Source: a virus. From it: a stretch of DNA of 24,132 bases. The position numbers and the translations under genes are program-made. The notes under the pieces were generated by a model. The model was not told the origin of the DNA. It worked only from the letters and a program-made list of their open reading frames with translations, and searched no databases. The stretch covers positions 1 to 24,132 of the IMG/VR virus record IMGVR_UViG_3300017628_000002. One strand, 5' to 3'. Shown here in pieces: positions 1 through 24,132 of the stretch; position 1 is the stretch's first letter, and the number at the start of each line of letters is the position of its first letter.

Positions 1-1470
1 CAGCGGCCAGCGGCCGCCCCCGCGTCCGCAGGCCCTGCGTCTGCGCCCACCGCTCCGACGCCGCCCCCGGCGGGAGCTTCACAGGAGAGTGAGATGACCA
101 CACCCAACGAGGGCGGCGGGACCGCCAGCGATGCCGTCGCCAAGGCGCGAAAGGCCGGCGCGAAGTACGCGGCGGACGTTGCGCAAGCCGCCGCAAAGGC
201 GGTCGAGGCCGGCCTGCCGCAGGCGGAGGCCGACAAGATGGTGGCCGCTGCGCTCGAGGACGACGCCCAGGACCTCATCGCGTTCCAGGCGAAGCTGTTC
301 GAGGCCGTGGCGGCCGCCGCCAAGGCGTCCGAGCCGGCGCCCAGCCAGACACCGAGCGCTCAAGTGACGGTCGATGCGCGCGACAAGTTCGTGAACGGGA
401 TCGCCCAGGCGGTGCTTGCCACGATCGGGATCGGCCAGCGCGACCCCGGCAACGAGTTCAACGGCGCGACGCTGTCGCGCATCGCCGAGCACTGCCTTGT
501 GCGCGCCGGCGTGCGTCCCGGGATGAGCAAGAGCGCCATCGCCGCCCAGATCTTCAACAGCCACACGCGGACTGATTTCCCGCTCGTGCTCGAGAACATC
601 GCGTCCAAGTCGCTGCTCAAGGGCTATGACGAGGCTCCGGAGATCTTCGACCGGTTCACGCGGCGCGGCTCCCTGCCGGACTACAAGGAGGCGGCACGGA
701 TCGACATGTCGGTGTTCGCCAACCTCGACCGGGTCGAGGAGGGCGCGGAGTACACCTACGCCACGCTCGGCGAGCGCGGCGCCCGGGTGCAGCTCGCGAA
801 GTACGGACGCATGATCCAGATCACCGAAGAAATGGTGATCAACGACGATCAGAACGCCTTCGCCAGCATCCCGCGGAAGATGGGCTCGGCCTCGCGTCGC
901 ACGATCGGCAACCTCGTGTTCGCGATCCTGACCGGCAACCCGACGTTCAACGGCGCTGCCCTGTTCCACTCGACCAGGCAGAACCTCCTGACCGGCGCCG
1001 GCTCGGCGCTGGCTGATGCGGGTCTGACGGCTGCGTGGACCGCATTCACCACGAGGACCGATGCGCAAACCGCCGGCGGCTCGGTCGCCGAGGCGGTGCT
1101 GAACATCGAGCCGAAGTATCTGCTGGTGCCGCGGGCCCTCGATACGCAGGCTCGGCGTCTGATGTCTGCGGAGTCGGTCAACAACAGCGCCGGCGCGCTG
1201 TCCGGCACGCCGAACACGTGGCGCAATCGGTTCGAGGTCATGTCCGACGCGCGGCTCGACCGCGCCGGCGGCGGCGCGACCCGATGGTTCTTCCTGGGCG
1301 ACCCGGACATCTACGACACGATCGAGGTGTCGTATCTCGACGGCAACGCGAACCCGACCCTGACCCGGGTCGAGCTCTACAAGACCGACTCGATCGACTT
1401 CAAGGTGAAGCAGATCGCCGGCGTCGCCCCGCTCGATTTCGCTGCGATGCAGCGGAACGAAGGCGCATAA
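1..1470 (+). CDS. Phage major capsid protein (Mu gpT-like), probably C-terminal part of a protease-capsid fusion; 5' end outside window
   Basis: Forms the icosahedral head shell. The reading frame is open from base 1, so the visible 489 residues probably belong to a longer polypeptide. The first 30 residues are an Ala/Pro-rich linker of the kind that joins a ClpP-like prohead protease to a Mu gpT-like capsid domain in fused phage proteins. The capsid part follows, with motifs such as FNGATLSRIAEHCL, YTYATLGERGARVQLAKYGR and ALFHSTRQNL, which I recognise as typical of Mu-like major head subunits. An internal ATG at 94 has a good Shine-Dalgarno (AGGAG, 83-87) six bases upstream, so a separate 458-residue capsid product could also be made. 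Ala-rich residues 10-90 after that ATG look helical, like a delta domain or scaffold that is removed on maturation. Capsid identity is firm; the fusion is inferred because the protease lies off-window. Confidence 0.85.
   Translation, partial: QRPAAAPASAGPASAPTAPTPPPAGASQESEMTTPNEGGGTASDAVAKARKAGAKYAADVAQAAAKAVEAGLPQAEADKMVAAALEDDAQDLIAFQAKLFEAVAAAAKASEPAPSQTPSAQVTVDARDKFVNGIAQAVLATIGIGQRDPGNEFNGATLSRIAEHCLVRAGVRPGMSKSAIAAQIFNSHTRTDFPLVLENIASKSLLKGYDEAPEIFDRFTRRGSLPDYKEAARIDMSVFANLDRVEEGAEYTYATLGERGARVQLAKYGRMIQITEEMVINDDQNAFASIPRKMGSASRRTIGNLVFAILTGNPTFNGAALFHSTRQNLLTGAGSALADAGLTAAWTAFTTRTDAQTAGGSVAEAVLNIEPKYLLVPRALDTQARRLMSAESVNNSAGALSGTPNTWRNRFEVMSDARLDRAGGGATRWFFLGDPDIYDTIEVSYLDGNANPTLTRVELYKTDSIDFKVKQIAGVAPLDFAAMQRNEGA
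83..96 (+). promoter_or_regulatory. Internal ribosome binding site and ATG within the protease-capsid frame
   Basis: AGGAG at 83-87 sits six bases before an in-frame ATG at 94. It lies exactly between the Ala/Pro linker and the capsid domain, so it could let the capsid protein be made in excess over the fused product. It is also possible that the true capsid gene simply starts here and the upstream frame is open by chance because of the high GC. Confidence 0.5.
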
Positions 1471-5051: not shown

Positions 5052-5760
5052 CGCGAAGGTCTTCGTCGAGGACGGCGCAGCCATCGCGGTGCGGGTCGCG
5101 GCCAGCCAGCACCCTGAGATCATGGACCGGGTGGCGCGCCGCGCAGCCATGAGCGCGCGCAACGCCGTCATCGCCCAGATCCGACGCGTGTTCGCGCAAG
5201 GTCGCCGCCGCTCGGGTGGGCGCTTCGAAAAAGCGGTTCCGAAGATCCGTCGCAATCCGGTGGACTTCGGCGACGGCGCCTTCGGCTACGAGGTTCTGCA
5301 CAAGGCAGACTACCGCCTGCGCCGCCGACAGGCGTTTGATCTGTTCTGGTTGTTCTCCGGCACGCCACGCACGGTGACCAGCGCGCGCGGCAAGTTCCTG
5401 ACCATCCCGATCGGTGCGCCGTCTACGCCGGAATCGGTCGTGCCCTCGCGTCGCTGGGGTCGCGCCGCTTCGATCGCCTGGCCCGAGGATCTGGAAAAGC
5501 GCGGCTGGAAGTTCTGGGTGCTGTCGCCGGCACGGTCCGGCAAGCGACATCCGATCCTGATGGGCGTTCCGCCCGGCCAGAAGAAATCCAGCAGCCGGCC
5601 GATGTATCTGCTCGTGCGTCAGGTGCGCATCAACAAGCGCCTCGACCTCGCAGGCATCGCCCGGCGCACCGACGCCCGCATCCCCGCCATGATCAGCGCC
5701 GAGCTCAAGCGCGCAGAGCGCATGGAGGGGCGCACCCGCTTGCGCAGAGGCCGCCGATGA
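5044..5760 (+). CDS. Hypothetical tail-region protein, possibly DUF6441 family
   Basis: 238 residues starting with GTG and overlapping the previous frame by 8 bases; a purine-rich AGGGGGCGA precedes the start. The protein is strongly basic, especially at residues 50-75 (QIRRVFAQGRRRSGGRFEKA) and at the C-terminus (RTRLRRGRR). Central motifs include LHKADYRLRRRQAFDLFWLFSGTPRTVTSARGKFLTIPIG and, later, RPMYLLVRQVRINKRLDL, a strand pattern seen in proteins placed between assembly chaperones and tape measure in alphaproteobacterial prophages. I suspect the DUF6441 family from that pattern, but this is from memory. Its stop overlaps the tape measure start by ATGA. A structural role in the tail initiator is possible; no catalytic residues are seen. 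Confidence 0.6.
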   Translation: MVDAKVFVEDGAAIAVRVAASQHPEIMDRVARRAAMSARNAVIAQIRRVFAQGRRRSGGRFEKAVPKIRRNPVDFGDGAFGYEVLHKADYRLRRRQAFDLFWLFSGTPRTVTSARGKFLTIPIGAPSTPESVVPSRRWGRAASIAWPEDLEKRGWKFWVLSPARSGKRHPILMGVPPGQKKSSSRPMYLLVRQVRINKRLDLAGIARRTDARIPAMISAELKRAERMEGRTRLRRGRR

Positions 5761-8700
5761 CCGTGCACAAGACCTCGATCCGCTACGAGACCGAAGGCGT
5801 CTCGAAGAGCACCGGCGAGGTCATCCAGCTCACCAACGCGATGGACCGCCTTGAGAAGAAGGGGCCGGCGCTGGGTGCAGGCGCCCGGTCCGGAGCGCAG
5901 GGCGTCAATGCGCTCGACCAGGCGCTCGGCGGCCTCGGCCTCAGGCTGAACCAGACTGGCGCCCAGATCGATCCCCTGAACCGTCGGACGATGTCGATGA
6001 CCCGGGCGCAAGGCGCAGCGGCCGCCAGCGCCGGCGCGCTGGCCATCGCCATGGGCGTCTCGGGTGCAGCGGCCGGCGCCTATGGCCTCACGCTGGTGGC
6101 GCTGGCGGATCGCTATGCCGCCTTGCAGGGGCGCATAAGGATCTATTCGGCGTCTGCGGCCGAGGCGGCTCGAACCGAGGCGGCGCTGTTCGCTGCGGCC
6201 CGGGAGACCCGTCAGGCCGTCGAGCCGATGGTCGCGCTCTACAGCCGGCTGCAGCCTGCGATGGCCGACATGGGTCGGAGCCAGCAAGAGACGCTCGCGT
6301 TCACGACGCTGGTCTCCAAGGCCCTCGCGACCCAAGGGGCGACCACCCAGGAAACCCAAGCGGCCACGGTCCAGCTGGCGCAGGCGCTGGCCAGCGGCGT
6401 GGTGCGCGGCGACGAGTTCCGATCCTTGATGGAGGCGGCTCCCGGCCTGATGCGCAACGTCGCGCTGGGGATGGGCGTCGGCGTGGGCGCATTGCGGGGC
6501 CTTGCCGAAGAGGGCGAGCTGACTGCCGATGTCGTGATCGCTGCGATCGAGCGGATGTCCGGCAAGATCGAGGGCGACTTCGCCAAGGCGCCGAAGACTG
6601 TCGGCCAGGCCTGGCAGGTCCTGCAGGACGCGATCATGCGGGTCGTCGGCATGGAAGCGCAGGCTACCGGCGCCCAGAGCGCTATAGCCGATGCTCTGCT
6701 CGCGGTGGCGGACGCGGCCGACGAGGTCACGGCCGCGGTGAAGCTCGCGGTGCAAGCGGCCATGGTCCTCGGCACGGGTGCGTTGGCTGCGGGCGCTGTG
6801 CGCCTCGTGGGCCACCTGCGCGCGGTCGGCCAAGCTGCGGCTGACGCGGCTGCGAAGGCCCGCGCTCTGGAGCAGATGCGGATGCAGGGCGCCGTGGCCG
6901 GCAACGCCATTGCAGCCAGCGCTGATGGCGCGGCTGCGCTGAACGCCGCCCGGATCGCCGAGGCCAACACGCGCGCCCTGCAAGAGCAGGATCGGGCGAT
7001 GAAGGATCTGATCAAGAACAGCACCACCTACATCATGCAGACGCAGCAGGTCTCCCGTGAGGCAGCGCGAGAGCAGGTCGTGGCCTTCGCAGAACAGAAC
7101 CGTGAAGGCCTGCTAGCCGCACGTGCCGTACAGGCGTTCAGTCAGGAGATCGCCGGGGCTTCTCGCCAGAACACGTACCTCGCGATGGCGCAGCGCGCCG
7201 CCACCTCGGCCATGAACCTGTTTCGCGGCGCAGCTGGCTTCGTTGTCTCGCTTATGGGCGGCCCGTGGGGCGTGGCGTTCGCAGCCGCCGCCGCCGCTGT
7301 CATGGCCTTCGCCTGGTGGACCGACAAGGCGCGTCATGCGCAGGACGGCTTCGCCGGTGCGCTTGCTGACACCGAGCAGATGGTGAAGGCCTATGAGAGG
7401 GCCGTCCTGCAGGCCAACAAGGCGACCGGCGAAGCGCGGGAGGCGGCCCTGAAGAACGCCGCTGCGCAACGCGAAGAGGCGTTAGCCTATTACCACAAGG
7501 CTCAGGCAGCTGTTGCAGCCGCGCGTGTGCAGGCGGCGGAATTCTCCGCCCGTGCAGCGATGCCCGACGTCAGCAGCGGCCGTCTGGACGCAGGCGCTGC
7601 TCTGACGTTCGGCGTTCAGGGCGCGCGGGCAACGAACCTCGAAAATCAGGTCGCCAACGCGGAAGGCAAGCTGCGGGCAGCCGAGCAGGCGCTCGAGCAG
7701 ATGGGCGCTTTGATCACCCGCATGGGCAAGGGGCGGACGGTCGTGTCCTTCGGATCTGCCTTGGACGAGCCGCGCCAGACGGGCGGGCCTCCTGCTGCGT
7801 CCGACGCCAAGACGGCCGCCGGCGGCAACGGCGCCGCAGAGAAAGCGCGGCGGGAGGCAGAGCAGCTTGCAGAGCGGGTTGCCGACGCCCGCCGACGGAT
7901 CGCAGCGGAAGGCCTCCAGCTCGAACGGCAGGAGATCGAGGCGTCGCTGCGTGACCAGGAGGACGCACAACGCCGTCACCTGGCCCGCTTCGAGCGGATG
8001 TCGCGGGACGGCAATCAGGCGGCCGCCCAGGCCAGCGTGGAGGCCTATGAGCGTGCAGGCGTGGAGATTGGTGCGATCCGCAGCCGTCTGCATCAGATCG
8101 CGCTTGCGCAGCTTCAGGCGGAGACAGAGGCGGAGAAGGTCGAACTGCAGGATCGTCTCAAGGGCGCAGCCGATCTGGCCGGCCTGCTTGAACAGCTCGA
8201 GGCGCAGCAACTCGCCAAGCGGAGCGCGCTGAACCGCGAATACAACACCGTCACCGTCCAGGAGGCTTCCGATATGGCCAAGGCCATGCAGAGGGCCCAG
8301 GAAGAGGCGCTGGCGCGTTTCCGCGAAGAGAACCGGCGGATGTATGAGGCCGGCGAGGGGATAGCCCGAGCGCTGCGCGATGGCGTTCTCAATGGCGGCA
8401 ACTGGGAGAGCGTCGGCCAGGCCGTCGGCAGAACGATCCTCGAGGCGCTCTATGACGCCCTGATCGGTGATCCGCTGACCAAGATGATCCGCGGAGCAAT
8501 CGACAATCTCATGCAGCCGTCCGACGGCGGTCGCAGCGGCGGCGGGATCCTGTCGGGGCTGATGTCCGTGCTCGGTTTCTTCGGCGGTGGCGGAGCCGGC
8601 CCCGGAGGCGTATCGGGGTCTGCCAGCACGAATGCGCGCAACGTCTCAGGCTCGGTGTCGTTCCCTGCCAGGCCTCAGATCGCTGGTTCGCGAGCCGGAG

Positions 8701-9014
8701 GCGGCGACGTGCGCGCCGGCCTGTTCTACCGGGTGAATGAGACCGAGCAGGAGTTCTTCGCGCCGCGCCGCGACGGCGCGATCTGGACGCCGCGCCAGCT
8801 CGGCGCACTGGCGGGGCGCTCGTCCGGATCCGCCGGTACGACGGTCAACATCCACAACCACACCGGCGCTGAAGCTCAGGTTCGCCGGCGGCGCGGCCCG
8901 GGTGGGCTGGAAGAGATCGATGTCATGCTGCGTGAGCGTGTCGAGGGCATGGCCCGGTCCGGCGACCTCGCGCGCTCCATGGGCATCCCGCAACCCGTTC
9001 CGGTGCAAGGATGA
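5757..9014 (+). CDS. Tail tape measure protein
   Basis: 1085 residues, the second longest gene in the window. It sets the length of the tail and is threaded inside the tube. Residues 80-310 carry the tape measure N-terminal domain, with the signature GDEFRSLMEAAPGLMRNVALGMGVGVGALRGLAEEGELTADVV. Residues 380-480 and 680-870 are long charged helices (for example AEKARREAEQLAERVADARRR) consistent with coiled coil. A hydrophobic stretch around residues 491-521 (FVVSLMGGPWGVAFAAAAA) is the usual segment that inserts into the host inner membrane during DNA entry. The C-terminus has Gly-rich linkers and a TVNIHNHTGAEAQVRR motif common at tape measure ends. At roughly 1.5 angstrom per residue this would suggest a tail of about 160 nm, a family-based estimate. 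Confidence 0.93.
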   Translation: MTVHKTSIRYETEGVSKSTGEVIQLTNAMDRLEKKGPALGAGARSGAQGVNALDQALGGLGLRLNQTGAQIDPLNRRTMSMTRAQGAAAASAGALAIAMGVSGAAAGAYGLTLVALADRYAALQGRIRIYSASAAEAARTEAALFAAARETRQAVEPMVALYSRLQPAMADMGRSQQETLAFTTLVSKALATQGATTQETQAATVQLAQALASGVVRGDEFRSLMEAAPGLMRNVALGMGVGVGALRGLAEEGELTADVVIAAIERMSGKIEGDFAKAPKTVGQAWQVLQDAIMRVVGMEAQATGAQSAIADALLAVADAADEVTAAVKLAVQAAMVLGTGALAAGAVRLVGHLRAVGQAAADAAAKARALEQMRMQGAVAGNAIAASADGAAALNAARIAEANTRALQEQDRAMKDLIKNSTTYIMQTQQVSREAAREQVVAFAEQNREGLLAARAVQAFSQEIAGASRQNTYLAMAQRAATSAMNLFRGAAGFVVSLMGGPWGVAFAAAAAAVMAFAWWTDKARHAQDGFAGALADTEQMVKAYERAVLQANKATGEAREAALKNAAAQREEALAYYHKAQAAVAAARVQAAEFSARAAMPDVSSGRLDAGAALTFGVQGARATNLENQVANAEGKLRAAEQALEQMGALITRMGKGRTVVSFGSALDEPRQTGGPPAASDAKTAAGGNGAAEKARREAEQLAERVADARRRIAAEGLQLERQEIEASLRDQEDAQRRHLARFERMSRDGNQAAAQASVEAYERAGVEIGAIRSRLHQIALAQLQAETEAEKVELQDRLKGAADLAGLLEQLEAQQLAKRSALNREYNTVTVQEASDMAKAMQRAQEEALARFREENRRMYEAGEGIARALRDGVLNGGNWESVGQAVGRTILEALYDALIGDPLTKMIRGAIDNLMQPSDGGRSGGGILSGLMSVLGFFGGGGAGPGGVSGSASTNARNVSGSVSFPARPQIAGSRAGGGDVRAGLFYRVNETEQEFFAPRRDGAIWTPRQLGALAGRSSGSAGTTVNIHNHTGAEAQVRRRRGPGGLEEIDVMLRERVEGMARSGDLARSMGIPQPVPVQG

Positions 9015-10259: not shown

Positions 10260-13200
10260 ATGGCAAGATTGCTGATCTATCCCAACCCGCTGGCGGCGCC
10301 GGTGCGGCGGCGAACCCGCGCGCGCGCCGTCAAGGGCGGGGTCGTGACAGCGGTCGCGCACGCGCCTGAGCTGCTGGCGCCCGACGTCCTCATCGTCGCT
10401 CGCCTGAACGGGAGCGAGCTCTGTGCGGACGCATGGGACAGCACCCCGCTCAAGCCGGGCGATGTGCTCGAGGTGTTTGCCCGGCCGCAGGACTTCATCA
10501 CGGCCGCCACGACAGCATGGACTGTCATCAAGGGGCTGTTCTCGGCGAAGACCTTTCTGTCTTCGGCCTGGAAGATCACTCAGTTCGCCATGGCCGCCTA
10601 TTCGGTGGTCTCGCTGTTCCGGCAAGCGCCGCGTGCTCCCGGCCAGGAGGAGCGACTCTACCAGCTGACGGGCGGCTCCAATCAGGCGTTGCCGCGCGAG
10701 CGCCTGCCGATCGTGTTCGGCGAGACGCGGATGACGCCCCCGCGCGCCGCGGAGGATTTCCTCGAGTTCGTTGGCGACAACGTCTTCCTCAATGTGGCGC
10801 TGAACTGGGGGCAGAAGGACGTCGACCTCTCGGCCATCAAGATCGGTGAGACGCCGCTCGAGCAGTTTGGCGCCGACGTCGAGGTTCAGCATCATCTCAA
10901 GGCCGGCGATCCCGCACTGACCATGTGGCCGGGCGACGTCAATGACCAGTCGGTCGCCGTCGAGCTCACCGCTCCGAACGTCTGGGTCGCGCGCACCACC
11001 TCGCCCGCCACCGACCGGATCGTGCTGATCTTCGGCTTCCGGCAGGGCCTGGTCTCCATCGACAGCAAGCAGGGCCGCAACTCGATGCCGCGCGAGGTGC
11101 GGTACCGGTATCGGCCTGTCGGTTCGACAGATCCCTCGGACTGGGTGGCGGTGACTCCGACCATGCCGGCTGCAGATGCAGCCGCGCGGACGTTCCTCGG
11201 TATCGACGACCGGCTGGAAGCGGGAATCGACCTCGGAGCCTGGGCGGATGTCATCGCCGGCGGCGCCGCACCGGGTTCCGGATCGATGGTGTTCTCGGCG
11301 TCGTCAGCGCAGCCGATCACCCGGACCATCGAGCTCGCGGTGCCGCGCGGGCAATATGTGGTCGAGGTCATGGTCCCGCAGGCAGCGACGACAGCTGCCC
11401 GCGACGTGAACCGCGTCTGGTGGGAAGGGCTCCGGTCGATCACGTCGGAGAGCCCGTTCCGCGAGCCGACTGCAGCGATCTCGCTCTTCAGGATCAAGGC
11501 GACCGACCGCCTGTCCGGATCCGCACCGCCCATCTCTGGTATCGTGCAGCGACGCGCGCGCACGCGAACGGCCGCAGGCGTCTGGAGCGCCGGCATCACG
11601 GGGCCGAGCCGCAACCTTGCCGATACGCTCCTCTGGCTGCTGCAGGGGCCGCATCTTTTCCGGCCGACTCCTGACGCCGAGATCAGCTTCGCGGACCTCG
11701 AGCAGGTCTGGCAGTGGTCGCAATCCCAGGGCTTCCGGGCAGATGGGATCTACCAGGGTGAGGAGGGCCTCGAGGAGCTGGTGGAGCGCGTGGCGGCAAC
11801 GGCGCGCGTTAAGGTCTACCGCACGAGTGCGGGCAGCTGGGGTTTCTCGATCGACCGGGTTCGGTCTCTGGCCACGACCCAGAGCCAGCTGATGAACGCT
11901 GCGACCTTGCACGCGCTGAGCGTGAACGTCGTCTACCCGCCGAAGGTGCACGCCCTGCGAGCGACCTTCCCGGACCGGGCCAAGGACTATGTCGAAGAGG
12001 AAATCACGGTCTATGCCGACGGGTACTCGGCCGCCAACGCTACGGTGATCGAGCGCGCGGACACGTCCTACATCGTCGACGCGGCCCATCTCACCAGCTA
12101 TCTCTCGACGCAGCTGCGGCTGATGGATCAGCGGCGCCGCACGATCGTCTGCGAAGACGCGTGGGACCACCTCGTCTGCGACATCAACGATCTGGCCTTC
12201 GTCTCGCACCCGGAGCTGGGCGACGGCCTCGTGGGTGCGGAGATCCTCGCCGTCGGGTTGATTGGTGGAGCGATCGACAACCTGACGCTGTCGCATCCTG
12301 CCCCCGAAGGCGCGAGCCTCGCCATGCAATGGCGGCGGATCGAGGATGTCGGCCCGGGTGATGCTCGGGTGCGCTCTGACAGCGTGGCGCCGATCGGAGC
12401 GCTGACCCCTGATCGTCGGGTGATCTACTTCTCCCCGCGCCTCGCGACGGCGACGGGCCCGGCGGTCGGAACGACGGTGAGCATCGGACCGGCGACGGCT
12501 GTGACCGCGCCGATGGTCATCCAGAGCATAGAGCCGATCGACGAGCATCGCGCCCGGATCACCTTGATGGACTATGCCGAGGCGGCGTTGTCCGGCTCGG
12601 CAGGCGGTGCGGTGCTGGCGGGGACCGTCCGGGAGAGTGACGCGGTCGCAGCGTGCATCAGCCCCGTGATCCGACGGCTGCGCCGCGCCGTGAGCGTCGG
12701 CTTCAGCTTGTCGGCCGGCAAGCCCGTCTACGAGATCCGCGTCGGTTGGCGCCGGGCTGGTTCGACCGACGCCTGGACGTGGCAGGCGCCGCTCGGCCCG
12801 GAAGCGCGCGGCGTCACGTTCGTCTGGGACCGCGACGAGAACCCGCGCGATCTGATCATCCAGTCCATGGGGTTGGACGGTACGCCGTCGACGCCCCTGC
12901 TGGTCCTGAACCAAACGCCGACCGGCGTGCTCGACCCGCCGACGTCCTTCACGGCGAACGCTGCGGTGATCGTCTCGCCGGGGAACGCACGGGTCCCTGT
13001 TATCCAGATCGCCTGCGCGCCGATCGAAGATCTCGACGTGGACGCGGTCGGAGTCGAGATCGCAGTCTACGCGGGCGCGGTGCTCGGGCCGTGGCGCGGC
13101 GTGAAGGACCTGTCGCCGCGCAACCCGACCGGGGACATCACCGAGGTTCGACCCGGCGGCACGCACCGCGTGCGTGTCCAGACGCGTTCAGCCGCGCTTG

Positions 13201-16200
13201 GTCTGGCGTCCAGCTGGGTCGAGTCGGCCGACATAACGGTGGCGGATCTCGGCGCCTCGAAGCTCGGCGACATCGCGCCAACCGACATCCTGCCGATGTC
13301 GTTCGACATCGACGGGACGCTTCGCCAGTACACGGCGCTGGCGCTGGCGTTTGCAGATGCGGCCAAGAACGCCCTCTGGAACAATGTCGGTGGACGGCCG
13401 CTCAACCTGGCCGCGCTGGACCTGACAGCAAGCCAGACGCTGACGACGCTCAACCTTGCGGTGAGCTCGCCCAGCCCGAACCTGTTCGCGGAGCCGTCAG
13501 GCCGAGGCAACGCAGGTGCGGCATCGTCGGTCGGCTGGACTGGTGCAACCGGCCTGACAATGGTGACGCTGGGGCCTGCCGGCGGACCCTACTACCAGCG
13601 CATCTTCCTGAGCGCCGTCAATCTGTTCGTCCCGGATCAGACCCATGTCTTCCGGACCACGACCGGCGGCGCAGGGGCCTACACGCTGTCTTGGCATGCC
13701 TGGCGCTCGAGCGGCCTCGACGCCCGTGTGCGCCTCGTCGCCCGCGACGGCGCGGGAGCTTCTCTGGGCGCTACCGCGTGGACCACGCTGCGCATCGGGG
13801 CAGGGTCGGACACCGGCGTGGCGCGCCAGGCGCTGACCTATGCCAACACGCCGGCCGGCACGATGGCGCTGGATCTGGAGTTGAGCCTCCCGACCCAGAC
13901 GCTCAACGGAAGCCACGAGCTCGGGATCCGGCAGATCAAGCTCGAGCGTGGCGCGACCGCGACCGCCTATAGCGAAGAGGCCCGGGCGCTCAACGTGGCG
14001 GCACGGGTCGAGGACGTGGCCACGGCGGCCATGAATGACACCACGGCCGTGTCCCAGCGGGTCACCAACCTCCTCAGCGATCTGCAGGGCACGGCGTCAA
14101 ACCTGCACCCCAACCCGCTGCTCAGCACCGCATCGGGCCAGAGTGCAGCGGGTTTCGCGGTCCGGTCGACGCCCGGAGCGAACCCGGGCGCCGTGACCGT
14201 GACGCGTGTCGGCGTCGTGGGAGCCTATGCGATCGAGGCCACCTGGGCGGCCGCGCTCACGACCGACAACCGACCGATCATCTTCGGCGGCGTCTGCGCA
14301 CTGCCAGCAGGCGCGATCGTCGCCGGTCAGCGTTACGCCCTCGGCATCGGCCTTCTCGGTCTCACCGGCACGGCCGCCGGCGTCTGGGTGCAGGGGCTCT
14401 GGCTGAACTCTTCGGGCGTGCAGGTCGGCAGCTTCATCCTTGATGCGATCGGAACGACGCCGACGTCGACGACCACTGTCGGCTCCACGACCTTCGTGTC
14501 CGGCGTAGCTCCGGCGGGCGCGGTCGACATCGCGTTCGAAGTGGTGGCCTTCAAAACCGCGCAGAGCGCCACAGGGGCTGGCAGCGTCAGGGTTGCATGG
14601 CCGATCGTGTCGCCAATCGATGCCGCCAGCCAGCGGCCTCCCCAGTGGGCAACAGGGGCAGCCACGCGCGCGGCCGCGGACGTTCTCAGGGTCGATCAGT
14701 CGCTTGCGCAGCTGCGCGGATCCTCCGCCCTGACGATGACGCAGGTCCAGGCGAAGTTCACGCCCAATCCGAACCTCTGGCCGGATCCGAGCGGCGATGG
14801 TTCCGGCGCGGCGATCTCCGCCACGGGCTGGCTCGACGGCACGGGTGCGGTCAACGGGAACGTGCAGGCCTATGGCGGCCGGGTGATCCTGCGCCAGTAT
14901 CCCAGCGGCGCCACGATCGCCGCCGCGCAGTTCAGTTCGCGGCGGATCAGCGTACCGCCCAACACCGAACTCACGCTCTCTCTCACTGCCGGCCGCGGCA
15001 ACTTCAACGCGTCGTGGCAAATCTACGCGCTCGATGCGTCCAACAACATTGTGCTGACCGGGCCCGCCGCCCAGACGTTCCCGAACGTGGTCGGCGGCGG
15101 CCGACAGTCCGCGACGATCACGACGCCAGCAAACGCGACCCAGATCCAGCTGTCTGTGATCATCCCGATCCAGACGACGACCGGCTACAGCGACTGGTGG
15201 ATCCGTCAGATCAAGCTGGAAGTCGGCGGGATCGATACAGGCTACTCCGAAGAGGGTCGTACCGGCGCGCTCGAGAGCCGGGTCACGTCGGCTGAGGCCG
15301 TGAACACCTCCCAGGGCGCAGCGATCGCGGGCACGCAGCAGGCGCTCACTGCGGCGCGGGACGCGTTCAACCTGCTGTTCAACGGCTCGTTCGTCGTCAC
15401 CGAGCCGGTGTCCGCTGGCGCGAACGACCTCGCCGGAGTGGCGGCCGGCACCCGCGTTGTGGGCTGGTGGCGTTCAGGCGGTTGGTTCGCCACTTCGGAC
15501 GGCGGCGGTCACCGGGCCATGCTGTTCGAGGCCCCGAACAATTTCTACGAGCTCGTCAGCCCCTGGGCTCCGGCCGAACTTGGCGGTCCCTACAGCGCCA
15601 GCGCCGAAGTCACGAGCCTTCTCTACGGTTCGACCCTCGCACAGCTGCGGATCGACTGGGGTGACGCCGCCGGCAACGTCGTCAGCTCAGGCACGTTCGC
15701 GGACCTCAATGTCGCCCAGAACGGCAGCTGGCAGACCATCGGCATCCCCAATGGTGTCCTCACCAGCCCGAACCGACCTGCCGGCGCGACACAGGTCCGC
15801 GTGACGTTACGGGTTACCGTATCGGGCAGCTCGGCCGGCCGGTACGTTCTCGCGCGCAGGTTCATGATCACCTATGGGGCCGCGCTGCAGCCCTGGAACA
15901 ACCAGGCGGACATCCGCCGGTCCGCGACGGCCGCTGTCGATTCAGAGAAGCTCGTGGCGGACGTCAACCAGGCGCTGGTTGCAGCGGGAGCCTCGGTGGC
16001 GACCCGACAGACCGCGTTCAAGGACAGCTTCGGCGCAAGCGCGATTACGTCCGAGATCCTGACAGCCTACGGCGCGACGGTTCAGAGCATCAAAACCGCG
16101 ATCGAGACCGACCGGATATCGATCTCCGACGCCAAGACTATCGTCAGTGTGCTGTCAGGGACGAGCGCCTCAACGCGCGCCACCGCCCTCCAGACGATGG

Positions 16201-17039
16201 AGCAGCGCGCCGCGAGCTACCAGACGTTCGTGACGGCGCTGAGCGGGGACGGCTTTGGGTCCACCGTGGAAACAAAGGCTGAGGCGCTCGTCACAGCACA
16301 GCAGCGCGCCGCGAGCTACAACACGTTCATCGGGGAGCTGAAGGGCGCGAGTGTCCAGACGAAGGCCCAGGCGATTCAGACTGCAGTCGACCGGTCCGCA
16401 GCCTATCTGGTCGCGGTCGAAGGGTCGGGCGGAACCGTCACCTTCACCATGAAGTCGGACAAGACTGGCACCCGCGCCAGCCTTGAGGCGGATGAAGTCG
16501 CGCTCTTCGGTTCAGGGGCCAAGCTCACGGTTTCGAACGGTCGCGCTTTCGTGGATGGTGCATTGTCTGCACAGGCTGGCGGCGCGCGCGTGACGCTGGT
16601 CGGAGAGAGCGGCGCCGCTATCTGGATCGGGCCTGCGTCGGTGCCAGTCGGCCAAGAGACGTCCAGCAACGCGATCCTTTACGTCGACGGTACTCAGGCA
16701 TTGACCTCTGGTCAGCCGATTGCCTCCGCCGCCGACAACCCGTCGCTCAGCCTGTCGGACACGGTGACGCTCAAGACCGTCTTCGGCGGCTCTGGGGCCA
16801 TTCAGTCCGACGTCGTGACCGCTACCCCGCAGGGAGGCACCGGCTGGACATTCAGCTGGACGTTCGAAGCCGGTGATAGCGGGGCCACCATCACGAGTCC
16901 GTCCTCACAGGCCACCCAGTTTTCCTACAGCTTCTCAGGCAACGGCGAGCGTTCCGGCCTGTTCAGATGCACCGCGACCAACTCGGCTGGAAAAAGCGCG
17001 GCCCAGCTCGTCCAATTCGTCGCGACAAGGGAGCCGTGA
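10260..17039 (+). CDS. Host specificity / central tail tip protein (lambda J or TipJ type)
   Basis: 2259 residues. Forms the central tail spike that contacts the receptor. Residues 1-80 resemble the small gpI-like domain (PLKPGDVLEVFARPQD); residues 85-125 are hydrophobic; residues 145-700 are the conserved J core, including FGETRMTPPRAAEDFLEFVGDN, ADTLLWLLQGPHLFRP and LVCDINDLAFVSHPELG. A fibronectin-III-like region follows near 895-990. From 1070 on there are two related beta-sandwich modules, beginning PNLFAEPSG (about 1072) and PNLWPDPSG (about 1502), each ending in RQIKLE followed by YSEE; two further unique domains near 1282 and 1702; helical repeats near 1975-2060; and an Ig/PKD-like C-terminal domain (about 2165-2255). 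The C-terminal modules probably determine host range through carbohydrate binding. Confidence 0.9.
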   Translation: MARLLIYPNPLAAPVRRRTRARAVKGGVVTAVAHAPELLAPDVLIVARLNGSELCADAWDSTPLKPGDVLEVFARPQDFITAATTAWTVIKGLFSAKTFLSSAWKITQFAMAAYSVVSLFRQAPRAPGQEERLYQLTGGSNQALPRERLPIVFGETRMTPPRAAEDFLEFVGDNVFLNVALNWGQKDVDLSAIKIGETPLEQFGADVEVQHHLKAGDPALTMWPGDVNDQSVAVELTAPNVWVARTTSPATDRIVLIFGFRQGLVSIDSKQGRNSMPREVRYRYRPVGSTDPSDWVAVTPTMPAADAAARTFLGIDDRLEAGIDLGAWADVIAGGAAPGSGSMVFSASSAQPITRTIELAVPRGQYVVEVMVPQAATTAARDVNRVWWEGLRSITSESPFREPTAAISLFRIKATDRLSGSAPPISGIVQRRARTRTAAGVWSAGITGPSRNLADTLLWLLQGPHLFRPTPDAEISFADLEQVWQWSQSQGFRADGIYQGEEGLEELVERVAATARVKVYRTSAGSWGFSIDRVRSLATTQSQLMNAATLHALSVNVVYPPKVHALRATFPDRAKDYVEEEITVYADGYSAANATVIERADTSYIVDAAHLTSYLSTQLRLMDQRRRTIVCEDAWDHLVCDINDLAFVSHPELGDGLVGAEILAVGLIGGAIDNLTLSHPAPEGASLAMQWRRIEDVGPGDARVRSDSVAPIGALTPDRRVIYFSPRLATATGPAVGTTVSIGPATAVTAPMVIQSIEPIDEHRARITLMDYAEAALSGSAGGAVLAGTVRESDAVAACISPVIRRLRRAVSVGFSLSAGKPVYEIRVGWRRAGSTDAWTWQAPLGPEARGVTFVWDRDENPRDLIIQSMGLDGTPSTPLLVLNQTPTGVLDPPTSFTANAAVIVSPGNARVPVIQIACAPIEDLDVDAVGVEIAVYAGAVLGPWRGVKDLSPRNPTGDITEVRPGGTHRVRVQTRSAALGLASSWVESADITVADLGASKLGDIAPTDILPMSFDIDGTLRQYTALALAFADAAKNALWNNVGGRPLNLAALDLTASQTLTTLNLAVSSPSPNLFAEPSGRGNAGAASSVGWTGATGLTMVTLGPAGGPYYQRIFLSAVNLFVPDQTHVFRTTTGGAGAYTLSWHAWRSSGLDARVRLVARDGAGASLGATAWTTLRIGAGSDTGVARQALTYANTPAGTMALDLELSLPTQTLNGSHELGIRQIKLERGATATAYSEEARALNVAARVEDVATAAMNDTTAVSQRVTNLLSDLQGTASNLHPNPLLSTASGQSAAGFAVRSTPGANPGAVTVTRVGVVGAYAIEATWAAALTTDNRPIIFGGVCALPAGAIVAGQRYALGIGLLGLTGTAAGVWVQGLWLNSSGVQVGSFILDAIGTTPTSTTTVGSTTFVSGVAPAGAVDIAFEVVAFKTAQSATGAGSVRVAWPIVSPIDAASQRPPQWATGAATRAAADVLRVDQSLAQLRGSSALTMTQVQAKFTPNPNLWPDPSGDGSGAAISATGWLDGTGAVNGNVQAYGGRVILRQYPSGATIAAAQFSSRRISVPPNTELTLSLTAGRGNFNASWQIYALDASNNIVLTGPAAQTFPNVVGGGRQSATITTPANATQIQLSVIIPIQTTTGYSDWWIRQIKLEVGGIDTGYSEEGRTGALESRVTSAEAVNTSQGAAIAGTQQALTAARDAFNLLFNGSFVVTEPVSAGANDLAGVAAGTRVVGWWRSGGWFATSDGGGHRAMLFEAPNNFYELVSPWAPAELGGPYSASAEVTSLLYGSTLAQLRIDWGDAAGNVVSSGTFADLNVAQNGSWQTIGIPNGVLTSPNRPAGATQVRVTLRVTVSGSSAGRYVLARRFMITYGAALQPWNNQADIRRSATAAVDSEKLVADVNQALVAAGASVATRQTAFKDSFGASAITSEILTAYGATVQSIKTAIETDRISISDAKTIVSVLSGTSASTRATALQTMEQRAASYQTFVTALSGDGFGSTVETKAEALVTAQQRAASYNTFIGELKGASVQTKAQAIQTAVDRSAAYLVAVEGSGGTVTFTMKSDKTGTRASLEADEVALFGSGAKLTVSNGRAFVDGALSAQAGGARVTLVGESGAAIWIGPASVPVGQETSSNAILYVDGTQALTSGQPIASAADNPSLSLSDTVTLKTVFGGSGAIQSDVVTATPQGGTGWTFSWTFEAGDSGATITSPSSQATQFSYSFSGNGERSGLFRCTATNSAGKSAAQLVQFVATREP
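16202..16319 (+). repeat. Tandem helical repeat within the tail tip gene
   Basis: The 19-base string GCAGCGCGCCGCGAGCTAC occurs at 16202-16220 and again at 16301-16319, a period of 99 bases (33 codons). In protein it gives QRAASYQTFVTALSG and QRAASYNTFIGELKG, with a more diverged third copy from about 16386 (DRSAAYLVAVEGSGG). Each unit is preceded by a related ALQT/ALVT/AIQT helix, so three about 33-residue units precede the C-terminal beta domains. Confidence 0.75.
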
Positions 17040-18157: not shown

Positions 18158-18536
18158 TGCGTTCGCGCTGCTGGCGTCGGAGTATGGCGGCGCGCTTCTC
18201 TTTGGATTGGCCGGCTTCGGCGTTCGCTGGTCGGGCCTTGCCTTGCCCAATGGCGGGCGCGAGCCCCCGAACGCGCGTGCAGCGGCGATCGCGCTTTTTC
18301 GGCTCTGGGTAGAGGCCACGGCATTCAGCCTTGCCTTTGCCGCCGCTGCGTTCGCGGCCGCCGCCTGGCTGCCAGGGATCGATTCCGCCTCGGCCGTCGG
18401 CGTAGCGGCGTTCATCGGCGCCGCCCTCAGCGGCGGGTTGACGGTGCTGGTGACCCGTCCGGTCCCGGCACTGCAGCGGGTCGTCGATTGGGCTGCGAAA
18501 CTCATGGGCGCTTGGCGCGGTGGAGGGCAAACATGA
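18150..18536 (+). CDS. Small membrane protein directly before the endolysin, holin candidate
   Basis: 128 residues. The start at 18150 is preferred over longer frames because GGAGG (18137-18141) lies eight bases upstream and it gives an eight-base overlap. Two clear membrane segments lie at residues 52-74 (LWVEATAFSLAFAAAAFAAA) and 80-101 (ASAVGVAAFIGAALSGGLTV), with a weaker one at 12-27. The C-terminus is amphipathic (ALQRVVDWAAKLMGAWRGG). Its stop is overlapped by the endolysin start (ATGA), so the two are made together. This is the best holin candidate by position; topology would be two or three spans. Confidence 0.65.
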   Translation: MPDAFALLASEYGGALLFGLAGFGVRWSGLALPNGGREPPNARAAAIALFRLWVEATAFSLAFAAAAFAAAAWLPGIDSASAVGVAAFIGAALSGGLTVLVTRPVPALQRVVDWAAKLMGAWRGGGQT

Positions 18537-19150
18537 TCACGACAGAAACTCTGCGGCGGCTCGCGCCTTCGGCTCGGCCGACGGGTGAAGCCCACGCCGT
18601 CGCGCTGGAGGCCGCACGCCGGCAAAGCACCATCACCACGCCCCGCCGGCTGGCGGCCTTCCTCGGCCAGATATTCGTGGAGACGGGCGGGTTCCGGACG
18701 CTGGTCGAGAACTTGAACTACACCCGGCCTGAACGGCTTGATTCGCTCTTCGTCCACGTGCGCGGGCTCGAGGATGCGCGCGCACTGATCCGGCGCGGGC
18801 CGGAGGCGATCGCCAACCGGGTCTACGCGAACCGGCTGGGCAACGGCGACGAGGCCAGCGGCGACGGCTGGCGGTTCCGCGGCTCGGGCCACAAGCAGCT
18901 CACCGGCCGCGCAAACTACCGGGAAATCGGCAGGCTCATTGGGATGGACCTCGAGGGCCGGCCGGAGCTGGCGCGTGAGATCGGGCCTTCGGCGCTGATC
19001 GCAGTGAAGTTCTGGGACGCTCGGCGGTGTTCGGCCGACGCCGATGTAGGCGACATCGAAGAGGTCACCCGCAAGATCAACGGCCCGGCCCGGCTAGGCC
19101 TGGCCGAGCGCCGCGCCGCCACGGTGAAGGCGCTGGGGATCTGGCGGTGA
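18533..19150 (+). CDS. Endolysin, glycoside hydrolase family 19 (chitinase-like muramidase)
   Basis: 205 residues. Cleaves the glycan strands of peptidoglycan at the end of the lytic cycle. The ATG is preceded by GGAGG and overlaps the previous stop. Typical GH19 lysozyme motifs are present: FLGQIFVETGGFRTLVENLNYT, with probable catalytic Glu50 and Glu59, then RVYANRLGNGDEASGDGWRFRGSGHKQLTGRANY, and a C-terminal ARKINGPARLGLAERR-like segment (TRKINGPARLGLAERRAAT). Length matches single-domain phage enzymes of this family. No signal peptide is visible, so release depends on the holin. The stop is overlapped by the spanin start (GTGA). Confidence 0.93.
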   Translation: MITTETLRRLAPSARPTGEAHAVALEAARRQSTITTPRRLAAFLGQIFVETGGFRTLVENLNYTRPERLDSLFVHVRGLEDARALIRRGPEAIANRVYANRLGNGDEASGDGWRFRGSGHKQLTGRANYREIGRLIGMDLEGRPELAREIGPSALIAVKFWDARRCSADADVGDIEEVTRKINGPARLGLAERRAATVKALGIWR

Positions 19151-19896: not shown

Positions 19897-20700
19897 ATGA
19901 ATGCGAGTCATGACGCGCGGGTTCGCCCGCTCGCCCCTTGGCTTGGCGGCAAGCGCAAGCTCGCCCGCCGTATCGTGAGCATCATCGAAAGCCGCCCGCA
20001 CCACACTTACGCCGAACCTTTTGTAGGCATGGGCGGCGTGTTTCTGCGGCGGAACACCGTTGCCCGCGCCGAGGTGATCAACGACGCGAGCACCGACGTC
20101 GTGAACCTCTTCCGGGTCGTCCAGCGCCATCATCTTGCGCTGACAGACTACCTCCGCTGGAGCCTGACCAGTCGAGCGGAGTTCGAACGTCAAATGGCCC
20201 AGCCGCCAGATCTGCTCACCGACATCGAGCGGGCAGCGCGGTTCCTCTATCTGCAAAAGCTGGCGTTCGGCGGAAAGGTTGCGGGCCGCAGCTTCGGGGT
20301 AGACCGCAGATCTGCTGCGGGCTTCAACATCCTGACGCTGGCGCCGCTGCTTCAGGACGTCCACGAGCGCCTTGCGGGGGTGACCCTCGAGCGTCTGCCT
20401 TATGGCGATTTCATCCGTCGCTACGATGCGCCGGCGACGCTGTTCTACGTCGACCCGCCGTACTGGGGTTGCGAGAAGGACTACGGGCCTGGGCTCTTCT
20501 CGCCGGCAGATCATGAGCGCCTGGCCGAGAAGCTGCGATCAGCGGCCGGAGACTGGATCCTGTCGATCAACGACGTGCCCCAGATCCGGGCGCTCTACTG
20601 TGGCTGGGCATGCCTCGAGGAGGTGGAGCTGACCTATTCGATCTCGGATGGCTCGCCGACGAAGGCCCGCGAGCTGATCGTAACCCCCGACTGGCGTTGA
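19897..20700 (+). CDS. DNA adenine methylase (Dam-type, D12 class N6-adenine methyltransferase)
   Basis: 267 residues. Transfers a methyl group from S-adenosylmethionine to adenine N6 in DNA. The N-terminal PLAPWLGGKRKLARRI matches the PF..W.GGK element, YAEPFVGMGGVFL (from about residue 38) is the SAM-binding motif, and DPPYWG (from Asp186) is the catalytic DPPY. Length is normal for the class. AAGGA at 19884-19888 supports the ATG, 125 bases downstream of the spanins. No partner nuclease is visible, so it is an orphan enzyme that could protect phage DNA from host restriction or alter regulation. Target sequence cannot be read from here; GATC is common in the family. It converges with the possible 62-residue minus-strand gene 20 bases away. 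Confidence 0.93.
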   Translation: MNASHDARVRPLAPWLGGKRKLARRIVSIIESRPHHTYAEPFVGMGGVFLRRNTVARAEVINDASTDVVNLFRVVQRHHLALTDYLRWSLTSRAEFERQMAQPPDLLTDIERAARFLYLQKLAFGGKVAGRSFGVDRRSAAGFNILTLAPLLQDVHERLAGVTLERLPYGDFIRRYDAPATLFYVDPPYWGCEKDYGPGLFSPADHERLAEKLRSAAGDWILSINDVPQIRALYCGWACLEEVELTYSISDGSPTKARELIVTPDWR

Positions 20701-20988: not shown

Positions 20989-21022
20989 CCCGCCGCGCTG
21001 TAGTACAACGAAGCGCGGCGGG
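20989..21022. terminator. GC-rich hairpin downstream of luxI, possible terminator
   Basis: Eleven-base arms at 20989-20999 (CCCGCCGCGCT) and 21012-21022 pair perfectly around a 12-nt loop. On the plus strand the stem is followed by AATCTCTTT, a weak T-rich tail; on the minus strand there is no T run. It lies 24 bases past the luxI stop and could end or attenuate luxI transcription, or block read-through from the phage side. Confidence 0.4.
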
Positions 21023-21045: not shown

Positions 21046-21714
21046 CTATGCGGCTATTGCGGCAGTGGTCGACGCCCGCTGCATATGGGTTAAGTCGCTC
21101 TCGCAGTGGCACTCGACGATGTAGGGGGACGTTCGGCCTGCCTTCGAGCGCAAGGCTTCCAGCTGCCCTGGCCACAATTCGTTCAACAGTGCCACCGCCA
21201 TGCCTTCCGCATAGGGCTGAGGCGGCCCAAGCGGGCGATTGCGCCAGCCGATGGAAAGCGCGAAGGGGACCATCCGCGCCTCAAGAAGGCCAGTTATGCC
21301 AGTGATCCCCCGAGAGATCGCGAATTCTACGATCGCGATATTCAGGGCGAGGTTCACGGCCAAGTTGGTTTCGCGAGAGCGCGTGCGGCCCGGTGGCGCA
21401 TGCCTTGTCCACTCCCATATATCTGGGCCGACCGGAACAGGTTCCGAACAGTACTGTGGAAACAAATCCCGCAACATGTGCCGTCGCCAGCTCGGGATCA
21501 TGCGGCCCGAACCGAGAAGCTCGCCGTCGTTGTCCAACGCAAGCAGGTATGTTGCATCGAGGCCGTCAAACTCGTCGACATCGAGACCATCGGGGCTTTC
21601 GAGCGCGCGCCAACCTAACTGGCCAACGAACAGCTCGTGGCGATGTCGGTGCATCGCTTCAAGCTCGTGCAGATAGAGTGTGCGGTTGTGCTGAGAGACG
21701 ATGTGAACGCGCAT
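21046..21714 (-). CDS. luxI: LuxI-family acyl-homoserine-lactone synthase
   Basis: 222 residues, full length. Makes an N-acyl-homoserine lactone signal from S-adenosylmethionine and an acyl donor. All nine residues usually invariant in LuxI enzymes are present: Arg25, Phe29, Trp35, Asp47, Asp50, Arg71, Phe85, Glu101 and Arg104. The pattern LGWRALESPDGLDVDEFDGLDATYLL is reminiscent of the RpaI/BjaI/BraI group of alphaproteobacteria, some of which use CoA-linked aryl or branched acyl groups; the signal here is unknown. A perfect Shine-Dalgarno (AAGGAGGT on the minus strand, 21722-21729) precedes the ATG. It lies 71 bases downstream of luxR on the same strand. Base composition is lower in GC than the phage genes. 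Confidence 0.95.
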   Translation of the reverse strand: MRVHIVSQHNRTLYLHELEAMHRHRHELFVGQLGWRALESPDGLDVDEFDGLDATYLLALDNDGELLGSGRMIPSWRRHMLRDLFPQYCSEPVPVGPDIWEWTRHAPPGRTRSRETNLAVNLALNIAIVEFAISRGITGITGLLEARMVPFALSIGWRNRPLGPPQPYAEGMAVALLNELWPGQLEALRSKAGRTSPYIVECHCESDLTHMQRASTTAAIAA

Positions 21715-21720
21715 GGGATC

Positions 21721-21752
21721 GACCTCCTTGTTCGGGCATTCGGCCCGAGGTC
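21721..21752 (-). promoter_or_regulatory. luxI leader hairpin that can pair the Shine-Dalgarno
   Basis: In the minus-strand mRNA, GACCTC (21752-21747) can pair with GAGGTC (21726-21721), which contains part of the luxI Shine-Dalgarno. Just inside, GGGC and GCCC pair around the loop CGAAT. Alternatively the inner arms extend to TCGGGC/GCCCGA. The same inverted repeat could instead be a DNA binding site for LuxR. Seen only as sequence; no energy calculation was done. Confidence 0.4.
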
Positions 21753-21785
21753 GTTCGCATCGCCAATTCCCCAGAAATGGGGGGG

Positions 21786-22523
21786 TCAGAGTGAGATGAG
21801 ACCTAGCGCCAGCGCTTCGATGACAGCCTGGGTGCGCGTGTGGACCCCAAGGCGCCTTTTTGCTGCGTTCATGTGATCAATCACGGTCGCTTGCGAAAGC
21901 GATAGTATCTCGCTGATTTCCCAGTCCGTTTTGCCGTAGCGCGCCCATTGAAGGCACTCGCGTTGGCGAGGTGAAAGCAACGGCCGTCGTTTCGGTGGAG
22001 CCGTTGCGTCACGAGTCAGTAGCTCTCCTTGAGCCCCAAAGTACAGGCACAGGAGATGAGCCGCTGCACGCTCGTCTGCCGAGAGGTCGAGTGTTTGCTC
22101 CGAACCCAATGAAACGCCCCACATCGATCCATCTAAGTGATGTATCGGAACGACGAATCCATCGCGAATACCAAAGTCCGCCGCTTGGTTCATGACACGT
22201 CGGGCCTCTGAATTATCAAAGTGCACCTCCGACCAGATGAAAGGACTTAGTTGTTCCATTGCGCGATCTACCATCGGATCGCGCGCGGCCAGTCCGTGCT
22301 CTGCATAGTGACGGGCCCAAGAGGGTTTGACTTCTCCCAAGAACGTTTGGCCAGAACGAATTCCTCCCGCCTGTACCCCCTCAGCAAGACAGAAGTAAGG
22401 GAAGCCCAGTTCGGCGAATGCAGTGCGATAGAGCGCAAGCAAATCGTCCGCGGCAGCCACATGCTTGCTGGCTTCAATGACCGCGATCGCCTTAGCGGCG
22501 GCGGTCATGCTACGGATACTCAT
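21786..22523 (-). CDS. luxR: LuxR-family quorum-sensing transcriptional regulator
   Basis: 245 residues from ATG 22523; a TTG directly before it is a possible but less likely start. Binds an acyl-homoserine lactone and controls transcription. The N-terminal domain has the ligand-pocket residues at canonical spacing: Trp69, Tyr73, Asp82 and Trp97 (equivalent to TraR Trp57, Tyr61, Asp70, Trp85), so it should sense a lactone. The C-terminal domain is a LuxR helix-turn-helix, LLSPRQRECLQWARYGKTDW followed by EISEILSLSQATVIDHMNAAKRRL. At the usually conserved Glu of the HTH (TraR Glu178) there is Gln, which is also common in rhizobial-type members. It is upstream of and probably co-transcribed with luxI. 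Confidence 0.94.
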   Translation of the reverse strand: MSIRSMTAAAKAIAVIEASKHVAAADDLLALYRTAFAELGFPYFCLAEGVQAGGIRSGQTFLGEVKPSWARHYAEHGLAARDPMVDRAMEQLSPFIWSEVHFDNSEARRVMNQAADFGIRDGFVVPIHHLDGSMWGVSLGSEQTLDLSADERAAAHLLCLYFGAQGELLTRDATAPPKRRPLLSPRQRECLQWARYGKTDWEISEILSLSQATVIDHMNAAKRRLGVHTRTQAVIEALALGLISL

Positions 22524-22742: not shown

Positions 22743-22955
22743 TCATCGCCTGTCTTCTGTTGGCCCTGACCGCACTCTTGGCGGCTGCCCAAGGTCATCG
22801 TGCTCCATGGCCGACAGATACGCCCGCGCCGCCAGCCGCAGGAACGTCTGTCGATCCCAGCCGAGCTTCGAATTGAGTGAGTCCATGCCCTCGGCCAAAG
22901 CCGAAGGAAATTGGATCGTGATCTCGATGGTGTCGCCGTTAGCTGTGTCACTCAT
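22743..22955 (-). CDS. Ribbon-helix-helix (CopG/Arc-like) small DNA-binding protein
   Basis: 70 residues with an ATGA overlap to the preceding zinc-ribbon gene. Residues 9-16 (TIEITIQF) form the expected beta strand, followed by PSALAEGMDSLNSKLGWDRQTFLRLAARAYLSAME, two helices with a GWDRQTF turn, as in CopG/Arc proteins. The last 20 residues are polar and probably disordered. Such proteins usually repress their own operon or act as antitoxins; no toxin partner is recognisable here. It is the last gene of a three-gene overlapped set upstream of luxR and could feed into its control. Confidence 0.65.
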   Translation of the reverse strand: MSDTANGDTIEITIQFPSALAEGMDSLNSKLGWDRQTFLRLAARAYLSAMEHDDLGQPPRVRSGPTEDRR

Positions 22956-23173
22956 GCAGACAATCTGGGCGCGGTCTCAAGCTGCGTCCAGTCAGGCCGG
23001 CTATCGGCGCCTCGTTCACCGCATGCGCCGCAGCGGGCACGCTCTCCCAAAAAAGGCACTGCTGCGTCGTCTGGCAGCTGATCTACGCAGACCAGGCTGC
23101 GCCGACCGCATCGCCGGCAGGTCAGGTCTATGCGCCTGACACCGAGCGATCGCATGTTCTCCAAGGTCATCAT
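22952..23173 (-). CDS. Small zinc-ribbon protein
   Basis: 73 residues. Two CxxC pairs, Cys19-Cys22 (TCRRCG) and Cys48-Cys51 (RCGACG), fit a structural zinc ribbon. The flanking sequence, LENMRSLGVRRIDLTC at the start and ADSRPDWTQ after the second pair, resembles a hypothetical family I recall as common in Rhizobiales, often on genomic islands. Two adjacent ATG codons are possible starts; the first gives an ATGA overlap with the upstream gene. No Shine-Dalgarno is evident, so translation is probably coupled. Function unknown; a nucleic-acid or protein binding role is plausible. Confidence 0.7.
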   Translation of the reverse strand: MMTLENMRSLGVRRIDLTCRRCGRRSLVCVDQLPDDAAVPFLGERARCGACGERGADSRPDWTQLETAPRLSA

Positions 23174-23490
23174 CGGCGGCGACGATAGCGCCGCAGCCGA
23201 GGTTGGCCAGTCGGAGCGACCTGCAACCGTCCCACCATCCGACGCAGCGCGTCGAGAGCCGCGATCGCAAGGCGACGGGCGACCATGGCGCGGTTGAGGC
23301 GATAGGCAGCGATTGCGGTCTGTCCCTCACGATTGGCGCTGCGTGCTTGCCCGACCCATTGCCGCGCCATGCGCTTGTGCGCACGCGCTGTGAGCGCCAA
23401 GTCACCAGGCAGGACGAACTCCGCAGGCATCATGGGGTTGACCCATAGCGGAGACAGATCCGGGATCGCAGGCAGGTGGTCGCGGCGCAT
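23170..23490 (-). CDS. Hypothetical basic protein, first gene of the minus-strand cluster
   Basis: 106 residues. The ATG at 23490 is preceded on the minus strand by GAGGAG about eight bases away. After a Pro-rich start (HLPAIPDLSPLWVNPMMPAEFVLPGD) the rest is helical and very basic: LTARAHKRMARQWVGQARSANREGQ, then AYRLNRAMVARRLAIAALDALRRMVGRL, ending PRLRRYRRRR. It may bind nucleic acid. Genes like this accompany the zinc-ribbon protein in alphaproteobacterial accessory regions as I remember them, but no family name is available. Overlaps the next gene by ATGA. Confidence 0.55.
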   Translation of the reverse strand: MRRDHLPAIPDLSPLWVNPMMPAEFVLPGDLALTARAHKRMARQWVGQARSANREGQTAIAAYRLNRAMVARRLAIAALDALRRMVGRLQVAPTGQPRLRRYRRRR

Positions 23491-23916
23491 CGGGAGGGCT
23501 CCTCGAAAAGATGTCCCGATGCTGGCAGTGGGCGAGATGCAAGTAAACCAGCCGCCGGCCGATGCATAGAGAAAGCATCATCATGCCTCCGGCCCCCGAT
23601 CATTGGGGCATGACCACCCCATTGGGTCCTTCTGCACTGCACTATTACACGGAGGTCGCGCCCGCGCCGTCTTTCAAGTTGAGCGCTCAGAAATCATGTA
23701 AGAATTTCCGCTTCGGGAGCCCCAAAACGGCCCGCCGGAATTGTCACAAAGCGACGCTGAGCGACGCGATCTCTCGGAAAGGGCATGAATTTTCGCGCCA
23801 TCGAGCGGATCAGCGCCGCGCATCAGCATTTACCTGTGGAAAAGCAGCTGCGCGGAACCGGTTCGCACGCTATGGCGGTAGGGATGCGTCGTGTGCGGGC
23901 CCCCGCACCCAGGATG

Positions 23917-24053: not shown

Positions 24054-24132
24054 ATGCGCATCAGCCGCCCTGTCCTCATCGCCGGCGTCGTTCTGTGCGC
24101 CGTGGTCGGCTATTTCGTCGTGCGCGGCGTGA
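24054..24132 (+). CDS. N-terminal fragment of a membrane or exported protein, cut by window end
   Basis: Only 26 codons are visible. GGGAG precedes the ATG by about seven bases. The sequence starts MRISRP and continues as a single hydrophobic stretch (VLIAGVVLCAVVGYFVVRGV), a signal anchor or signal peptide. The family cannot be named from this. S26-type signal peptidases of conjugative elements (TraF) and many envelope proteins begin this way. Confidence 0.55.
   Translation, partial: MRISRPVLIAGVVLCAVVGYFVVRGV

Follow-up and report, generated by a model that had tools for sequence, protein, structure and literature searches.

Does a complete luxI/luxR quorum-sensing pair that lies beside a phage late operon belong to the phage, to its bacterial host or to a conjugative element or plasmid? 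The pair was found in the IMG/VR virus record IMGVR_UViG_3300017628_000002, all 24,132 bases of which were analysed and are called the window here. Its first letters fall just before the capsid gene, and it contains neither an integrase nor the left phage end. The plus strand is a phage late operon, running from the capsid through to a Dam methylase:

94..1470, plus strand: major capsid protein / head protease (PF25209, 3e-47; phrog_133, 1.7e-91)
5757..9014, plus strand: tail tape-measure protein (PF20155, 8.1e-52)
10260..17039, plus strand: large tail protein, 2259 aa (phrog_469, 3.1e-25)
18488..19150, plus strand: phage endolysin (phrog_181, 2.3e-63)
19897..20700, plus strand: Dam-type (D12) adenine methylase, final gene of the late operon (PF02086, 6.5e-22; phrog_56, 7.6e-75)

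Single-sequence scans of IMG/VR with the tape-measure and capsid proteins of the window returned no relatives. On the minus strand, luxR and then luxI follow in tandem, 71 bases apart and convergent with the late operon:

20989..21022, no strand: 11-bp inverted repeat CCCGCCGCGCT / AGCGCGGCGGG in the dam-luxI gap, read directly
21046..21714, minus strand: luxI-type acyl-homoserine-lactone synthase, intact, 222 aa (Pfam Autoind_synth PF00765, 3e-20; 57% to Hyphomonadaceae L002)
21786..22523, minus strand: luxR-type receptor/regulator, intact, 245 aa, directly upstream of luxI (Autoind_bind PF03472, 1.3e-26; GerE PF00196, 2.6e-14)

The earlier note had placed the pair 346 bases beyond the last late gene; the adjacency held and the exact figure did not, as 345 bases lie between the dam stop at 20700 and the end of luxI at 21046. 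The inverted repeat in this gap is, from its sequence, a possible shared terminator of the two converging units.

LuxI scored 73 bits against PF00765 (cut-off 24), and all eight canonical residues (R25, F29, W35, D47, D50, R71, E101 and R104) were kept and were invariant in an alignment of 12 sequences (A1). With its domain over the cut-off and the canonical catalytic and core residues in place, 21046-21714 is by sequence a LuxI synthase gene, and lactone synthesis is predicted. LuxR was full length and over the family cut-offs, and combined an autoinducer-binding domain with a GerE helix-turn-helix, as expected of a quorum-sensing receptor. The ligand-pocket residues W69, Y73, D82, P83 and W97 were present together with the conserved glycines (alignment A2). 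Q187 aligned with position E178 of TraR, and glutamine was also found here in all seven relatives aligned. The domains over their cut-offs, the invariant LuxI residues and the pocket residues of LuxR bear out the description in the earlier note of an intact pair with its key residues. Its statements that the pair adjoins the phage late operon and converges on it (luxI and luxR minus, dam plus) hold as well.

A short palindromic element precedes luxI:

21769..21785, no strand: lux-box-like CCCC-N-GGGG dyad, 71 bases ahead of the luxI ATG, common to relatives

The CCCC-N-GGGG dyad was found 68-77 bases before luxI in seven of eight lux pairs, namely the window and six of seven bacterial relatives; for each lux pair the chance level was 0.5-5% of shuffles. 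Comparison of these loci makes the dyad a predicted lux box, likely implying self-induction of luxI. The two genes have the properties of a cognate pair, in that luxI adjoins luxR (71 bases apart) and the shared dyad is a putative LuxR site.

LuxI matches at 1e-20 or better were present in 82 of 398 Caulobacterales genomes, the best of them 48-57% identical, and the closest LuxI found (57%) was that of a Hyphomonadaceae genome (L002). In the best Caulobacterales loci luxR lies directly upstream of luxI, and in several a phyH gene (phytanoyl-CoA dioxygenase) comes next, its identity confirmed by Pfam in two of them. In a maximum-likelihood tree, the LuxI of the window paired with the Hyphomonadaceae gene (support 99/93) and next with that of genome G278 (98/83). 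It was contained in a nine-member LuxI clade (99/95), and no separate phage lineage was seen. Judged from this phylogeny, the lux pair of the window is bacterial, of the ordinary chromosomal Caulobacterales kind.

Some related pairs lie near mobility genes. In genome G231 (L060, 8291-16254) a related lux pair (49%) adjoins VirB4 and VirB8 genes and is likely a transfer-control pair. In G278 (L059, 3053-7919) a tyrosine integrase gene is located about 2 kb away from the sister lux locus, which includes phyH; this may be an island bearing a quorum-sensing pair. The pair on the Phenylobacterium zucineum HLK1 plasmid belongs to the same broad LuxI clade as that of the window and shares its luxR-luxI tandem and dyad; it differs in being 43% identical in LuxI and in adjoining type IV secretion genes, of which the window has none.

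The HLK1 and G231 pairs, with their secretion genes, and the nearby integrase of the G278 sister locus are what would be expected if the lux pair of the window were part of an integrative/conjugative element or plasmid adjoining the phage and controlled transfer as in TraI/TraR. The zinc-ribbon gene beyond luxR, which has relatives on Methylocystis plasmids, fits such an origin too. However, the window, which ends 1.6 kb past luxR, yielded no gene for transfer, replication or a relaxase, and the lux neighbours in the closest relative, L002, are ABC transporter, PhyH-like and P450-like genes, not transfer genes (by eye from translations). A transfer-control origin is considered very unlikely.

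The pair could also be prophage cargo (a moron) between dam and the right attachment site, excising with the phage, in which case the lysogen would make and read the lactone. A phage-carried pair should be present in related phages, and this was not the case: LuxI was found in none of 50 dam-type virus records, some of which are fragments. No other IMG/VR record with this LuxI was found with clade-level patterns, a single LuxI sequence or a LuxI alignment. In the phage collection, four records bore LuxI (OQ572407.1, CAKLQH020000009.1, CAKLQF020000013.1 and MT835580.1; L154-L156). Pseudomonas phage Y5 was set aside as a LuxI phage on account of adjoining RhlB-like and RhlR-like genes, resembling by eye the P. 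aeruginosa rhl locus, and Acinetobacter MD-2021a on account of acyl-CoA and non-ribosomal peptide genes around LuxI. One Acinetobacter record was examined and held chromosomal metabolism genes, and its twin has the same LuxI match. MT835580 was rejected for its lack of evident phage genes. In three of the four records LuxI sits in a recognisable bacterial locus, and the fourth is without evident phage genes; the phage-filed LuxI records look like bacterial DNA. These findings argue against cargo, as does the nesting of LuxI within Caulobacterales with no phage LuxI lineage of its own. Lying next to a phage operon does not by itself make a gene part of the phage, and the LuxI-bearing records of the phage collection point the same way.

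IMG/VR contains 51 relatives of the Dam methylase. A prophage in the Caulobacterales genome G118 encodes a capsid protein 32% and a methylase 54% identical to those of the window. On contig 25 of this genome (L165, L085) it is a cleanly delimited prophage, about 44 kb long, that has the integrase on one side and finishes with the Dam methylase on the other. It is the one related prophage whose attachment site was mapped: a 48-base direct repeat, corresponding to the 3' part of a tRNA-Gly gene, occurs next to the integrase and again, at the opposite end, 213 bases past dam. In prophage record G408 the integrase is at the left end and dam is 51 bases from the right end, and in G443 a host gene, that of a DNA ligase, is represented by its C-terminal part about 630 bases past dam. 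From these three layouts, dam is therefore often the last phage gene, and the mapped G118 site, only 213 bases beyond it, counts against the cargo explanation. Two related records suggest that there is room for cargo: in L122 and L148, repeats lie 1.0 and 2.4 kb past dam with genes between, and may be attachment sites, so cargo in that place is possible.

The attachment repeat of the window cannot be paired, because the left end and the integrase are absent from it. A search for tRNA remnants, in which the G118 attachment fragment was detected as a tRNA-like 3' end (positive control), found no tRNA fragment in the dam-luxI gap or in the flank beyond luxR. Direct repeats within the right flank included nothing att-like.

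Beyond luxR, the flank contains the following reading frames:

22743..22955, minus strand: small ORF, 70 aa, first of the flank (no Pfam or PHROG match)
22952..23173, minus strand: small four-cysteine zinc-ribbon protein of 73 aa (48% to a Methylocystis plasmid)
23170..23490, minus strand: small ORF, 106 aa (no relatives found)
starting at 24055: reading frame of only 26 codons, no name assigned

None of the three small ORFs matched a phage family. Relatives of the zinc-ribbon gene lie mostly among ordinary chromosomal genes (ten alphaproteobacterial genomes, judged by eye), and the gene was dropped as a phage marker on these grounds, despite a weak, distant relative inside phage L107. Nothing was found when viral contigs were scanned with an approximate, consensus-like zinc-ribbon query. 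The gene does not decide between host and phage. Small zinc-ribbon genes also directly follow the phage Dam methylase in L122 (49-372 past dam) and L114 (60-809 past dam), where they are encoded on the opposite strand.

The phage genes had GC3 values of 0.78-0.90, against 0.57-0.71 for luxI, luxR and the three small ORFs. This drop sets a compositional border between dam and luxI, and it fits an attachment site there and inserted cargo alike. When the right-flank DNA was compared with the 398 Caulobacterales genomes, all matches were short (23-51 bases), and translation of the ones at the right end gave unrelated proteins. No host genome was found with the same right-hand genes as the window. 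Cargo is compatible with the strand of the lux genes, opposite to the late operon, and with their lower GC3, as morons often are, and with the minus-strand zinc-ribbon genes after dam in L122 and L114. Set against the LuxI searches, the tree and the G118 site, these features leave it unlikely.

The lux pair is probably a host quorum-sensing locus just beyond the right attachment site of the prophage. This reading is preferred because of the Caulobacterales ancestry of the pair, the shared dyad, the phage ends in G118, G408 and G443, the absence of LuxI from the 50 virus records, the GC3 drop and the chromosomal relatives of the zinc-ribbon gene. Counted against it are the lack of an att pair, of a tRNA fragment between dam and luxI and of a matching host genome, the possible attachment sites 1.0 and 2.4 kb past dam, and the zinc-ribbon relative in L107. 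The window would then comprise the right part of a prophage and about 3 kb of alphaproteobacterial host DNA, the host probably being a member of Caulobacterales, with the attachment site most likely in the 345-base gap that separates dam from luxI. Past this site, the host luxR and then luxI, behind its lux box, would be transcribed towards the prophage. By analogy with established LuxR/LuxI systems, LuxI would make an acyl-homoserine lactone and LuxR would bind it; LuxR with its lactone would activate luxI through the lux box, forming a self-inducing loop, and would have host targets elsewhere.

Host DNA beside an attachment site had been named in the earlier note as an alternative, and it fits best with the lux phylogeny, the G118 attachment site 213 bases past dam and the 0 of 50 dam-type records. 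The same three results speak against the proposal that a lysogen makes and reads its own phage-encoded signal. Of the note as a whole, the intact pair and its place beside the late operon stand, and the favoured phage-owned reading is not supported. It is doubtful that the record represents a Caulobacterales temperate phage in which a complete LuxI/LuxR pair of host origin lies between late operon and attachment site, from which lysogens would gain a self-made, self-read signal. If phage-borne, the pair would provide the full Gram-negative equivalent of phage signalling circuits, and host and phage could share one signal. As it stands, the locus calls for caution, as metagenome virus records can carry host flanks.

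Among known systems, the pair resembles the chromosomal luxR-luxI(-phyH) loci of Caulobacterales and Sphingomonadaceae (e.g. novR/novI, PMC3704786), with the same luxR-upstream tandem, 48-57% identity to the best Caulobacterales LuxI and a shared dyad. The luxR-luxI-phyH arrangement has been described for sphingomonads (PMC3704786); the window differs in having no phyH downstream of luxI, where a prophage end takes its place. The LuxR of Aeromonas phage phiARM81ld (PMC6456758) likewise comes from a virus record and has an autoinducer-binding domain, but is only about 27% identical to that of the window. In addition, phiARM81ld is a characterised phage on which no synthase is named in that paper, whereas phage carriage of the window pair is putative. 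A phage LuxR with an upstream adjacent LuxI was reported in 2019 in the putative Myoviridae MH622937, a phage that the authors call unverified (PMC6456758). Synthase and receptor lie side by side in a phage-like record both there and in the window, a likeness drawn by description only. The idea of a phage-borne LuxR-LuxI pair is therefore not new, having been proposed earlier in an unverified phage-like record (PMC6456758).

A second CCCC-N-GGGG was observed at 23593-23608 of the window, about 100 bases upstream of the 23170-23490 ORF. This dyad is at chance level, six CCCC-N-GGGG being listed in the window; it could place the small ORFs under LuxR.
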